Assembly: GCF_009789225.1 (NCBI RefSeq)
Contig: NZ_WSTA01000029.1
Coordinates: forward strand, 1-37,740
DNA: 37,740 nucleotides
Reading direction: 5' to 3'
Source: Agromyces seonyuensis
GTDB lineage: Bacteria > Actinomycetota > Actinomycetes > Actinomycetales > Microbacteriaceae
Shown here: in pieces, positions 28,103 through 35,323 of the stretch
Numbering within the stretch: position 1 is the first letter of the stretch
Layout: every line of letters starts with the position of its first letter
Position numbers and translations under genes: made by a program
Notes under the pieces: model-generated
What the model was told of the DNA's origin: nothing
Seen by the model: the letters and a program-made list of their open reading frames with translations, nothing else
The model's database searches: none

Positions 28103-28163
28103 CCCAGTCCGCAGCCCGGTGCAGCCCGGTGCAGCCCGATCGCCGGCCGGTCGCGTGCATCGC

Positions 28164-30568: not shown

Positions 30569-31419
30569 GCGGCGGCCCCGTCGAAGGCGGCGACCTCGAC
30601 CCGCGCGCGGGCCACGACCTCGTCGCCGTCGGCGCTCGCGAGGGCGTCGAGGAAGCGCACCCCGAACGACCCCGGTCCCGCCGCGCCATCGGCCGCGAAC
30701 TCGGCCGCGACCTCGTAGACGAGGGAGGCGCACACGATCGCGAGGAACGCGTCGGGCTCGGCGGTGCCGGCGTCGGCCGCGAGGAACGCCGCCATCACGG
30801 CGCCGAGCGCGCAGCCGCCGCCCGTGACCTTCGTGAGCAGGGCGTCGCCGTTGGCGACGCGAGCCACGCGCTCGCCGTCGGTGATGAGGTCGACGGCCCC
30901 GGAGACCGCGACGACCGCGCGCGAGCGGCGGGCGAGCTCGGCTGCGGGCCCGGCTGCGGCATCCGTCTCGTCGGCGGCGTCGACCCCGCGGCCGCCGCCG
31001 CCCGTGCCCGCGAGGGCGAGCATCTCCGAGGCGTTGCCGCGGACGGCCGCCGGCCGCAGCGCGACGAGCTCGTGGGCGAGCGCCGTGCGGATGGGCAGCG
31101 CGCCGATCGCGACGGGGTCGAGCACCCACGGGGTGCCTGCGGCGTTCGCGCCGGCGACGGCCTCGCGGGCGGCCTCCCGTTGCTCGGGCGTCGGCGTGCC
31201 GAGGTTCACGAGCAGGCCGCCCGCGACGCCGGCGAACATCCCGGCCTCGCCGACGAGGTCGACCATCGCGGGCGTCGCCCCGACGGCGAGCACGGCGTTC
31301 GCGGTGAAGTTCGTCACCACCGAGTTGGTGATGCAGTGCGTGAGCGGCACGGTGCCGCGCACGAGGTCGAGGAGCTCCGAGGCTCGACGGGCAGGGTCGA
31401 TGGACAGACGATCGCGCAA
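30565..31419 (-). CDS. thiM: Hydroxyethylthiazole kinase
   Basis: 284-residue ribokinase-like kinase phosphorylating 4-methyl-5-(2-hydroxyethyl)thiazole. Family marks: [34 protein letters not shown] at the N-terminus, [32 protein letters not shown], and the catalytic Cys in [13 protein letters not shown]. Thiazole-binding and ATP-binding segments are complete. The start is a TTG at 31419, seven bases after AAGGGA; that ribosome site is the 3' part of the TPP riboswitch, so TPP can hide it. First gene of the salvage operon. Confidence 0.94.
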
Positions 31420-31427
31420 CGCGACAT

Positions 31428-31506
31428 CCCTTCGCTAGTCCGAACTAGATCAGGTTCGACGGGTGTGATCTCAGCCGCGTCGGTCGCGGCACCCCGTGTC
31501 ACTGCG
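31428..31506 (-). ncRNA. TPP riboswitch (THI element)
   Basis: Minus-strand sequence contains the conserved TPP aptamer blocks in order: ACACGGGGTGCC, GCTGAGA, a CCGT/GAACCTGAT block, and the closing TAGCGAAGGGA. The last block also supplies the thiM ribosome site, so control is probably at translation initiation. A TAGAGT -10-like box (31516-31511) lies just upstream, predicting that transcription starts close to the aptamer's 5' end. No convincing -35 box. Confidence 0.93.
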
Positions 31507-31569
31507 CGCCACTCTAGCGCTCGGCCGGTCGTCGACGTCGACGTTCTCGGCGAGGTGCTCCTTCTCCCC

Positions 31570-32728: not shown

Positions 32729-33622
32729 TCAGTCCTCCGGGATCGGGAAGAGCATCTGCTCGGTGAAGACGCGGTCCGGGTCGGGCCCGCTGCGGCGACC
32801 CGTGTCGAGCGCGTCGATGCGGCCGAGCTCCTCGGCGGAGAGCGCGAAGTCGAAGACGTCGAAGTTCTCGGCGATGCGCGTCGGGTTCACCGACTTCGGG
32901 ATGACCGAACGGCCCTGCTGGATGCCCCACCGCAGCATGACCTGCGCCGGGCTCTTGCCGTGCGCCGCCGCGATCGCGACGATCGTCTCGTCGTCCATGA
33001 CGCTGCGACGGTCATCCCCCCACGGTCCCGGGTAGAAGGTGATGCCGCCGATGGGCGACCACGCCTGGGTCAGGATGCCTCGCGCGGCGTCCGCCTCCTG
33101 GACGTCGTGCTGCGCGTGGTACGGGTGGAGCTCCACCTGGTTGACGGCCGGCACGACGGTCGCGACCTGCAGGAGCCGGTCGAGGTGCGCCGGCGTGAAG
33201 TTGCTGACGCCGATCGCGCGCACCTTGCCGTCGGCGAGGAGCGTCTCGAGCGCCCGGTACGCCTCGAGGGTCTGCTCGAAGAGGGAGACGGCGGGCTGGT
33301 GCAGGATCAGCAGGTCGAGCTGCTCGACGCCGAGCTTGCCGACGCTCTTGTCGAAGGCGTGCAGGGTCTCGTCGTAGCCGTAGTCGGAGGGCCACACCTT
33401 GGTCTCGAGGAACACGTCGTGCCGGTCGACGCCGGAGGCGCGCAGCCCCTCGCCGACCTGCCGCTCGTTGCCGTAGGCGGCGGCCGTGTCGATGTGCCGG
33501 TAGCCGACGCGCAGCGCGGCCTCGACGGCCGCTGCCGTCTCCGCGGGTGCGCTCTGGAAGACACCGAGCCCGATGACGGGCATCGTGACGCCGTTGTTGA
33601 GAGTCAGGAGTTCATCGCTCAT
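32729..33622 (-). CDS. Aldo/keto reductase (2,5-diketo-D-gluconate reductase-like)
   Basis: 297-residue aldo/keto reductase of the AKR5/2,5-DKG reductase-like class. Starts LTLNNGVTMPVIGLGVFQ; tetrad Asp45 and Tyr50 (HIDTAAAYGNERQVG), Lys75 (LETKVWPSDYGYDE) and His108 (LLILHQP); SNFTPAHLDRLL and QVMLRWGIQQGRSVIPKSVNPTRIAENFDVFDFALS are the usual later motifs. Reduces aldehydes or keto sugars with NADPH; substrate unknown. Start at 33622 is six bases after TAGCGT (33634-33629) with no properly spaced ribosome site, so probably leaderless. Upstream member of a likely two-gene unit with the other reductase. Confidence 0.93.
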   Translation of the reverse strand: MSDELLTLNNGVTMPVIGLGVFQSAPAETAAAVEAALRVGYRHIDTAAAYGNERQVGEGLRASGVDRHDVFLETKVWPSDYGYDETLHAFDKSVGKLGVEQLDLLILHQPAVSLFEQTLEAYRALETLLADGKVRAIGVSNFTPAHLDRLLQVATVVPAVNQVELHPYHAQHDVQEADAARGILTQAWSPIGGITFYPGPWGDDRRSVMDDETIVAIAAAHGKSPAQVMLRWGIQQGRSVIPKSVNPTRIAENFDVFDFALSAEELGRIDALDTGRRSGPDPDRVFTEQMLFPIPED

Positions 33623-33713
33623 GCCTCCACGCTAGGTCGGGGCCCCCGGGCCAGACAGGTCCGGTCGGTACCCCTCCCACCGGTCCCCCCTCATCCAACT
33701 GGTCGACCGCCCT

Positions 33714-33832
33714 TGCCTCTTCCCCGAGTGGACTTGCCTCTTCCCCGAGTGGGTAGGTGTCGCGGCCTCTTCCCCGAGTGGGTAGGTGTCGCGGGTGGGG
33801 ACGGGACGGCACCCACGACACTTACCCACTCG
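33714..33832. repeat. Intergenic inverted repeat, family II, copy C with triplicated left arm
   Basis: The leading edge CCTCTTCCCCGAGTGG occurs three times (from about 33715, 33737 and 33766), the later two continuing into GGTAGGTGTCGCGG. The third left arm, 33775-33797, pairs with the right arm 33810-33832 (CACCCACGACACTTACCCAC...) with one mismatch. The stuttered left arm suggests repeated partial duplication of the element. Confidence 0.85.
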
Positions 33833-33849
33833 AGAAGTGGGGTCAGCCG

Positions 33850-33879
33850 TTGACCGCGACACGCCCGGGCCGCTAGGTT
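33850..33879 (+). promoter_or_regulatory. Putative promoter of the rtcB leader
   Basis: TTGACC (33850-33855), 18 bases, TAGGTT (33874-33879). The predicted transcript would start near 33886, about 270 nt before the rtcB start codon. It is the best promoter I can see in the 534-base gap between the divergent aldo/keto reductase and rtcB. Confidence 0.6.
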
Positions 33880-33931
33880 CGTGAGGCTGCGCGACCTGCG
33901 CGGCGAACCCCGGCAGCAGGAAGGAACGGCC

Positions 33932-34024
33932 GTGCAACTGCAGCGCATGAATCCCGCTTCCTTCGTCGAGCCCACGGCATACGGCCGTTCGCTCGACGAA
34001 CTGCTGCTCGCTCCGGCCGGCTGA
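33932..34024 (+). CDS. Small ORF (30 aa) in the rtcB leader
   Basis: Predicted 30-residue product MQLQRMNPASFVEPTAYGRS, then LDELLLAPAG. The GTG start is preceded by AGGAAGGA at about 33918-33925 with good spacing. No known family recognised; no run of a single amino acid that would mark a classical attenuator peptide. It is placed between the predicted promoter and the rtcB hairpins, so it may be a leader peptide or a small protein in its own right. Confidence 0.5.
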   Translation: MQLQRMNPASFVEPTAYGRSLDELLLAPAG

Positions 34025-34054
34025 CGCCGCCCGCGGAACCTCCGCGATCTTCGT

Positions 34055-34130
34055 CACCCCGGCCGCACGAGGCCCGGGGTGTCCTTCCGATCTGCGCGCG
34101 ATCGGGAGCCCTCGGGCTCCGGAACCGATC
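34055..34130 (+). promoter_or_regulatory. Two hairpins in the leader between the small ORF and rtcB
   Basis: Hairpin 1: CACCCCGG (34055-34062) with CCGGGGTG (34074-34081), followed by TCCTTCC, terminator-like. Hairpin 2: GATCGG (34100-34105) with CCGATC (34125-34130) enclosing the perfect GGAGCCC-TC-GGGCTCC (34105-34120). They lie after the 30-codon ORF and before the rtcB ribosome site, a layout compatible with attenuation or RNA processing. Confidence 0.55.
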
Positions 34131-34156
34131 ACCACTGCACAGACTGGAAAGGACCG

Positions 34157-35323
34157 ATGGAGAAACTCTCCGGACGGCTCGTCTCCTGGGCGAGCCGCAT
34201 CGACGAGCGCACCGTCGAGCAGGCTCTCACCTCCTCGCGGATGCCGTTCATCTACCCGCACCTCGCCCTCATGCCCGACGCCCACCTGGGCCTCGGCGCC
34301 ACCGTCGGCTCGGTCATCCCCACGCTCGGGGCGATCATGCCGGCGGCCGTCGGCGTCGACATCGGCTGCGGCATGATCGCCGTGCGCACGCAGTTCGCGG
34401 TCGACGCGCTGCCGTCCGACCGGCGCACGCTGCGCGAGCAGATCGAGCGGGCCGTGCCCGTGTCGGCGGGCGGCGCGAACCGCAAGATCGTCGCGACCGC
34501 CGCGCCGCGCGTCGCGGAGCTCGAGGCCCTCGCGGCACGGGCATCCTTCGACCCCGACTCGTACGCCGGGAACTGGCGCCTGCAGCTCGGCTCGCTCGGC
34601 TCGGGCAACCACTTCATCGAGGTCTCGACCGACGAGCTCGGCCGCGTGTGGGCGTTCCTGCACTCGGGCAGCCGCGGCGTCGGCAACAAGATCGCGCAGC
34701 ACCACATCCGGGTCGCCCAGCGGCTCATGGCGAAGTGGTGGATCGAGTTGCCCGACCGCGACCTCGCCTACCTCGTCGAGGGCACCCCGGAGTTCGCGCG
34801 GTACCTCGCCGAGCTGCGGTGGGCCCAGCACTTCGCGCTGCTCAACCGCGAGGAGATGATGGACCGGGTCCTGCGCCAGGTCTCCGAGTGGGTCGGCGAG
34901 CCCGTGGTGGAGCAGGAGCGCATCAACTGCCACCACAACTTCACCGAGTCCGAGGAGCACTTCGGCAAGCGCGTGTGGGTCTCCCGCAAGGGCGCGATCC
35001 AGGCCGACGAGGGCCGGCCGGGCCTGATTCCGGGTTCGATGGGCACGGCGTCCTACGTCGTCGTCGGCAAGGGCGACCGGATGTCGCTGAACTCCTCGCC
35101 GCACGGCGCGGGGCGCGAGTACTCGCGGACGAAGGCGCGCCAGACCTTCACCCTTGAGCAGCTCCGCGAGGCGATGGCGGGCATCGAGTACCGCGACACG
35201 GATGCCTTCATCGACGAGATCCCGCAGGCGTACAAGCCGATCGACCGGGTGATGGCCGACGCGGCCCCACTGGTCGAGATCCGGCACACGCTGCGCCAGC
35301 TGGTGAACGTGAAGGGGAACTAG
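34157..35323 (+). CDS. rtcB: RtcB-family RNA ligase
   Basis: 388-residue RtcB, joining RNA 2',3'-cyclic or 3'-phosphate ends to 5'-OH ends using GTP and Mn2+. Very close to E. coli RtcB through its length: MPFIYPHLALMPDAHLGLGATVGSVIPTLGAIMPAAVGVDIGCGM (metal ligands Asp68, Cys71), LGSGNHF (His152), LHSGSRG (His169), NCHHNF (His260) and the guanylated His316 in SPHGAGR. No intein and no archease gene nearby. ATG 34157 with GGAAAGGA upstream. RNA repair after stress cleavage is the likely role; no partner RtcA or RtcR is seen. Preceded by a long structured leader and followed by two hairpins. Confidence 0.96.
   Translation: MEKLSGRLVSWASRIDERTVEQALTSSRMPFIYPHLALMPDAHLGLGATVGSVIPTLGAIMPAAVGVDIGCGMIAVRTQFAVDALPSDRRTLREQIERAVPVSAGGANRKIVATAAPRVAELEALAARASFDPDSYAGNWRLQLGSLGSGNHFIEVSTDELGRVWAFLHSGSRGVGNKIAQHHIRVAQRLMAKWWIELPDRDLAYLVEGTPEFARYLAELRWAQHFALLNREEMMDRVLRQVSEWVGEPVVEQERINCHHNFTESEEHFGKRVWVSRKGAIQADEGRPGLIPGSMGTASYVVVGKGDRMSLNSSPHGAGREYSRTKARQTFTLEQLREAMAGIEYRDTDAFIDEIPQAYKPIDRVMADAAPLVEIRHTLRQLVNVKGN

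Follow-up and report, generated by a model that had tools for sequence, protein, structure and literature searches.

A glutamine-rich leader frame and mutually exclusive hairpins before rtcB in Agromyces seonyuensis and its relatives: a probable ribosome-mediated attenuator

RtcB can reseal cut tRNA, and we know of no answer to the question of how bacteria without an RtcR sensor decide when to make it. The genome of Agromyces seonyuensis gave no match to RtcR (PF06956) in a search that matched the E. coli control, and its rtcB gene stands behind a long leader (33850-34157) in the stretch of DNA analysed here (the window: 37,740 nucleotides of contig NZ_WSTA01000029.1). In Salmonella the rsr-yrlBA-rtcBA operon is controlled by RtcR, a sigma-54 activator with a CARF domain, and induction of rtcB by damaged tRNA was demonstrated there, whereas for A. 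seonyuensis it is only proposed (PMC7790460, as far as the available part of the paper goes); the string “attenuat” is absent from the main text of that paper. We propose that in A. seonyuensis and its relatives RtcB is probably made only when translation of a tiny, Gln-rich upstream frame (uORF) falters, two mutually exclusive hairpins setting the outcome, and that the leader works by ribosome-mediated transcription attenuation, a reading to which we give a probability of about 0.8. Attenuation is indicated by (i) the Gln-rich frame; (ii) a covarying antiterminator; (iii) the predicted folding of the terminator; and (iv) the predicted masking of the rtcB ribosome site by the leader tail in Agromyces.

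The leader lies in an intergenic stretch bounded by a minus-strand ORF resembling an aldo/keto reductase (32729-33622) and by rtcB. A first-pass annotation had described a promoter, a 30-codon ORF, a terminator-like hairpin and a second, nested hairpin before rtcB, and all four can be read directly from the letters. Our analysis adds to that description an antiterminator, a Gln bias that relatives share, and complementarity between the leader tail and the ribosome site of rtcB. The features are:

33850-33879, plus strand: promoter TTGACC-N18-TAGGTT, read from the sequence
33886-33904, plus strand: 5' hairpin GCTGCGC..GCGCGGC, from the leader fold and from the Agromyces alignment where the sequences extend so far
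33918-33925, plus strand: ribosome site of the uORF, AGGAAGGA, read from the sequence
33932-34024, plus strand: leader-peptide uORF, GTG...TGA, 30 codons, VQLQRMNPASFVEPTAYGRSLDELLLAPAG, with in-frame counterparts in relatives
34007-34026, plus strand: predicted antiterminator 5' arm (CTCG, CGGCCGG, TGACG), formed by the end of the uORF with its stop codon, from folds
34052-34071, plus strand: predicted antiterminator 3' arm (CGTCA, CCGGCCG, CGAG), overlapping the terminator 5' arm and loop, from folds and the genus swap
34055-34081, plus strand: terminator-like hairpin hp1, CACCCCGG..CCGGGGTG, with the tail TCCTTCCGA, which is U-poor in A. seonyuensis
34082-34094, plus strand: tail strand D, which can pair with the ribosome site of rtcB, from pairing tests
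34100-34130, plus strand: second (nested) hairpin with the conserved loop CCTCGGG, from Agromyces alignment A2
34140-34153, plus strand: rtcB ribosome site and flank, CAGACTGGAAAGGA, strand E, from pairing tests
34157-35323, plus strand: rtcB, encoding RNA ligase RtcB, start ATG at 34157 (PF01139, 394.6 bits)

According to the proposed mechanism, RNA polymerase would start near 33886 and a ribosome would translate the uORF. A ribosome that got as far as the stop codon would sit on the final codons and hide the 5' arm of the antiterminator, which those codons form; the terminator hairpin would then form and transcription would end before rtcB. Should the ribosome stall early, most plausibly at the Gln codons, or should the uORF go untranslated, its end would pair with the terminator 5' arm and the polymerase would read into rtcB. 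In Agromyces a second lock may silence leak-through RNA, the tail behind the terminator pairing with the ribosome site of rtcB. The uORF, its Gln bias, the hairpin, the antiterminator and the covariation are backed by sequence comparison and predicted folding. As to the parts of an attenuator, we found a short, putatively translated ORF with a ribosome site just after the promoter, enrichment of that ORF in candidate regulatory codons (Gln) and a predicted antiterminator that takes in the end of the ORF and cannot form together with the terminator; the intrinsic terminator is represented by a hairpin with an excess of T after it across the set, while in the window the tail is U-poor and an E. 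coli-type consensus scanner, run over the leader, scored neither terminator nor promoter. The second promoter hexamer, TAGGTT, has three of six matches to TATAAT; the pattern TTGAC-N16-19-NANNNT is present in 38 of 74 leaders within 140 nt upstream of the uORF, against 0.5 expected from mononucleotide shuffles.

This layout recurs before rtcB in 81 of 88 leaders (23 from Agromyces, 65 from other Microbacteriaceae) of one Microbacteriaceae rtcB lineage, 22 genera in all, and in 76 of 83 once five Agromyces leaders that were fetched on account of their matches to covariance model R1 are excluded. The picking script, whose score combined the ribosome site, the start codon, the energy of the hairpin and its T tail, made no use of amino-acid or Gln content. 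It gave a uORF-hairpin pair in 85 of the 88 leaders (none in G215, G363 and G267), and 81 were kept after removal of G084, G321 and G397 (implausible) and G265 (wrong hairpin). For the pairing tests (n = 74) G341, G457, G197, G127, G251, G253 and G134 were also removed, since their hairpins either departed from the CCCCG/CGGGG type or had been mis-picked, and in G034, G011 and G014 the script's pick was exchanged for the CCCCG hairpin; these removals and exchanges, decided by eye, may make the pairing statistics look better than they are. Within a genus the leaders are related and hence non-independent, kinship being allowed for only in the genus-level tests (Gln in 22 genera, swaps in 21). 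The first-pass annotation had offered conservation of the ORF and the stems in related Microbacteriaceae as a check; both are kept there and the antiterminator also covaries between genera, so that its suggestion of attenuation is now well supported.

Within Agromyces, in-frame counterparts of the uORF were present in 17 of the first 17 leaders and later in 23 of 23, the stop lying 8-36 nt before the conserved GTCACCCCG in the first 17. Among 37 Agromyces genomes the leader was found in all 16 with a full-length, close rtcB and in G035, where rtcB is split, and in none of the other 20, three of which have rtcB remnants. R1, which models the hairpin region and was built from alignment A2, matched 23 of 60 genomes of the genus (one match each) and, with stricter filters, just 7 of 398 genomes of the family; the family genomes with an rtcB match numbered 93 of 398, fragments and distant ones counted. 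This suggests that the leader sequence is nearly confined to the genus, which the layout is not. A pattern search of named genomes gave 23 matches, 16 of them directly upstream of rtcB (15 in Agromyces, one in Leifsonia); the other seven, with no rtcB in the retrieved stretch, look like chance and were set aside. The rtcB gene itself is often lost or broken in Agromyces, with C-terminal remnants or an extra partial copy (G002, G012, G025, G011 and G035; loci L024, L029, L025, L027 and L026/L030), and in G035 it is split into two overlapping pieces behind a leader that is still intact.

Outside the Microbacteriaceae the plan was recognized by eye in 9 of 60 rtcB leaders, namely in 7 of 9 from family f7 and 2 of 8 from family f6, three doubtful leaders from other families (G596, G536 and G801) being scored as absent. 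Among lower-identity rtcB genes of the Microbacteriaceae the full plan was seen, again by eye, in 0 of 17, with one doubtful case (G386); for both of these groups the picking rule rewarded Gln content. A single rtcB lineage seems to carry the leader, because the layout is common in that lineage and complete in none of the 17 lower-identity genes. The doubtful case (locus L182) has a distant rtcB (41% identity) preceded by an LQQQ ORF and then a hairpin, and is perhaps an independent one, picked under the rule that rewarded Gln.

Glutamine accounts for 9.2% of the codons of the 58 non-Agromyces uORFs and for 10.0% in Agromyces, vs 2.3% in the window CDS, a background made up of the seven ORFs of the window only. 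The bias is specific for the frame, the other two frames having 0.9 and 2.8% Gln and shuffled sequences 3.3% (z 15; 0 of 500 shuffles as high). Control ORFs (ATG or GTG start, 15-60 codons, with a ribosome site; a rule similar but not identical to that for the uORFs, as no hairpin was required) had 2.1% Gln in leaders without the element (31 ORFs, after exclusion of 14 leaders that have or may have it) and 2.3% on the reverse strand of leaders with the element (49 ORFs). Gln exceeds 2.3% in each of the 22 genera, the lowest values being those of g71 (3.3%) and g67 (3.6%; five leaders, in which the hairpin is also indistinct). At least one Gln codon is present in 79 of 81 uORFs; in the other two the picked frame is a short one, read from an inner start of a longer ORF in which Gln does occur. 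Over the stretch 7-15 codons before the stop the Gln share is 12-15%, and it drops to 3-6% in the final six codons. The uORF of the window has Gln codons at positions 2 (CAA) and 4 (CAG) only. Gln is not the sole residue in excess: Leu and Glu exceed the shuffles as strongly (z about 14), and in comparison with the CDS Leu is raised (14.7 vs 9.0%) while Gly and Ala are lowered.

A functional small protein co-transcribed with rtcB would account for the similar N-terminal (VYLQRT-like) and C-terminal (LDQxLDPAP-like) ends of the uORF products within Agromyces. Against this, pN/pS of the uORF within the genus is 1.09 and the peptide is therefore without purifying selection at the protein level, the uORF sequences of different genera have, by eye, little in common, and the conserved C-terminal codons double as an arm of the predicted antiterminator; we consider such a protein highly improbable.

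The antiterminator of the window pairs CTCG..CGGCCGG.TGACG (34007-34026) with CGTCA..CCGGCCG..CGAG (34052-34071), at a calculated -25.1 kcal/mol. CTCGA, GGCAC and TGACG are found at the uORF end in 20 of 23 Agromyces leaders, with CGTCA..GTGCC..TCGAG on the opposite strand in most of them; the central block of the window differs from that of the relatives on both strands, with the pairing retained. Pairing between the stop-codon region and the terminator 5' arm has a mean z of -3.77 in Agromyces and of -1.49 to -1.79 in the other leaders and peaks there along the uORF; for uORF segments centred at least 24 nt upstream, z of the pairing with the same arm lies between -0.42 and 0.47. In 16 of 21 genera native pairs beat genus-swapped ones (p = 0.0019), a difference that two control regions did not show (p = 0.93 and 0.86); no native advantage was seen in the remaining five genera (g106, g55, g70, g71 and g90). 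In ten leaders from G779, f7 and f6, some of them closely related, z is also negative (-0.9 to -3.9). RNAalifold on 17 close Agromyces sequences gave no pairs with changes on both sides; it was uninformative because close Agromyces are too conserved, and wider sampling was needed.

Two further pairings were tried and rejected. One, between the 3' arm of hp1 and the sequence downstream of it (the nested hairpin included), looks good in Agromyces but failed the between-genus swap (p = 0.21) and is therefore left out of the proposed mechanism; the other, between the 5' UTR and the 3' arm, failed the same swap (p = 0.30).

The predicted effect of the ribosome on the terminator was read from equilibrium folds, which are not transcription kinetics, of 72 leaders (G375 and G191, with no Gln in the picked short ORF, were excluded). 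In free RNA the probability of the terminator is 0.20 in Agromyces and about 0.54 in the others; with the upstream sequence shuffled it is about 0.89-0.91, and because the native values are lower the upstream sequence would oppose the terminator beyond chance. With a ribosome at the stop codon the probability rises to 0.98 in Agromyces and 0.97 in the others, from which it follows that a ribosome finishing the uORF would remove this opposition. With the ribosome at the first Gln codon the values are 0.29 and 0.69 (vs 0.91 and 0.90 after shuffling of the upstream sequence), and at the last Gln codon 0.82 and 0.69, the terminator still being favoured on average in the latter position. The contrast is smaller in the window (0.53 free, 0.89 with the ribosome at the stop), where the best fold with a ribosome on Gln-4 is the terminator and not the antiterminator (probability 0.81). 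The 9 nt after the hairpin contain on average 5.17 T in Agromyces and 4.20 in the others (1.34 expected for the latter), and at least four T in 22 of 23 and 29 of 51 leaders, respectively; with three T the window is the lone Agromyces leader below four. The window is a weak example of the element because of its U-poor tail, the lack of a late Gln codon in its uORF and its small contrast in terminator probability.

The core hp1 motif is fitted by 45 of 74 leaders, pair 6 of the outer stem being A-U in 24 and G-C in 19. These 45 leaders also share one mismatch, mostly U-C or C-C, at a fixed position inside the stem. Elsewhere in the genome a loose pattern for hp1-like hairpins gave 19 rows vs 7 for the control. 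The leader as a whole (33886-34160) folds at -144.8 kcal/mol (z -5.76; 0 of 200 shuffles as good). Strong folding and the conserved mismatch might speak for a ligand- or protein-binding element that needs no translation, or for the idea, put forward in the first-pass annotation, of a leader that is itself cut and re-ligated as a feedback device. Rfam recognized no family in the leader at the gathering threshold (best 19.6 bits vs a gathering score of 56), no feature in support of an RNA-processing switch or of cutting and re-ligation by RtcB was found in the leader, and both the codon bias, confined to one frame, and the antiterminator, centred on the stop codon, suggest that a ribosome is the agent; we give readings of this kind very little credence.

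In Agromyces the predicted pairing of the leader tail would mask the ribosome site of rtcB. Pairing of strand D with this site has a mean z of -3.16 in Agromyces and falls below -1.5 in 23 of 23 Agromyces leaders and in 41% of the 51 others, controls being near 0, and native pairs beat genus-swapped ones in 15 of 21 genera (p = 0.0036). These values, as well as the U-poor tail of the window, would also fit mainly translational control, in which the tail strand covers the ribosome site, translation of the uORF uncovers it and the hairpin is no working terminator. The excess of T after the hairpin across the set argues against this reading, as does the behaviour of f6 and f7, where no lock was seen (z -1.2 to 0.7) while the antiterminator persists; we hold it to be improbable, and prefer transcription attenuation with the lock as a possible accessory in Agromyces.

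A conserved Gln-codon attenuator before rtcB in many genera of an actinobacterial family would point to a specific trigger, translation failing at Gln codons, and a shortage of intact or charged tRNA-Gln is a tentative candidate, held at somewhat below even odds. The boldest reading, sensing of tRNA-Gln loss, draws on the ability of RtcB to reseal cut tRNA and on the induction of rtcBA in Salmonella by damaged tRNA through another route: the uORF would be a test strip for intact tRNA-Gln, a nuclease that cuts tRNA-Gln would make ribosomes stall at the leader Gln codons, and RtcB would be made and could reseal the tRNA. We regard this as rather unlikely; if true, damage and repair would form a closed loop with the ribosome as its sensor, in a genome that lacks the RtcR/CARF sensor. 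A glutamine signal or a general ribosome-stress signal is as well supported as tRNA-Gln loss.

The design of a leader-peptide attenuator is already known (trp/ilv, whiB7, PA5471.1-armZ), and richness in Gln is the feature that sets the rtcB leader apart; to our knowledge whiB7/wblC uORFs have no Gln-codon bias. Judged by analogy and from the parts of the sources available, PA5471.1-armZ and the whiB7/wblC uORFs are the closest in plan. In Pseudomonas aeruginosa PA5471.1-armZ (PA5471, RtcB-like) likewise has a leader peptide, predicted terminators and a proposed attenuation before an RtcB-family gene, with ribosome trouble as the inducer; unlike the uORF described here, its peptide has 13 aa and lies about 250 bp upstream, and armZ has a role as MexZ antirepressor (PMC12057347, PMC3516279; available parts). 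The rtcB leader would be a second case, beside armZ, of an RtcB-type gene behind a leader peptide. A review, in the part available, links PA5471.1-armZ to a putative release-factor gene; in A. seonyuensis the downstream gene is of the RtcB family (PF01139) and a linked PrfH-like release factor was not found, the genome giving no PrfH match over the cut-off (two matches, 100.3 and 94.4 vs 166.65 bits). In the whiB7/wblC attenuators of actinomycetes full translation of the uORF similarly favours a Rho-independent terminator and disturbed translation an antiterminator, while the regulated gene encodes a transcription factor (PMC11550727, available part). Membership of the whiB7/wblC family was rejected, the downstream gene being rtcB and not that of a WhiB protein. 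Amino-acid leader peptides (trp; the ilvB-II uORF of Corynebacterium) share a uORF rich in the sensed codons and mutually exclusive hairpins; they differ in controlling synthesis of the sensed amino acid, whereas rtcB makes no glutamine (PMC11550727, available part). Among the matches listed in a search of open-licence papers there was no report of this rtcB leader.

The same attenuator might respond to general inhibition of the ribosome (antibiotics, damaged ribosomes), with Gln codons as a convenient slow or neutral filler; this would change the signal and leave the attenuator as it is. As described in the available parts of the sources, both PA5471.1-armZ and the whiB7/wblC uORFs respond to ribosome-targeting antibiotics, and in our folds the mean terminator probability is lowest in free RNA. 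A general sensor would not need Gln, which is about fourfold over the CDS and the control ORFs and raised in 22 of 22 genera, and we place a general signal slightly short of an even chance.

Three observations concern the surroundings of rtcB and of its leader. The sole Rfam match in the window is a TPP riboswitch at 31410-31506 on the minus strand (67.4 bits), which adjoins minus-strand ORFs that by eye resemble thiamine genes. A dispersed, partly palindromic repeat at 33712-33840, with tandem units such as GCCTCTTCCCCGAGTGGGTAGGTGTCGCG, stops just before the rtcB promoter; a 501-base query over the repeat gave at least 30 matches in the genome, itself included (40 of 141 candidates scored), and further matches within the window lie near 28160 and near 31565. 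Another Agromyces genome (G026:C445) has a second, distant rtcB homologue (44% identity), and 137 bases separate its matched part from the end of a preceding tRNA-Arg(TCT) gene (L028, 1289-1364).
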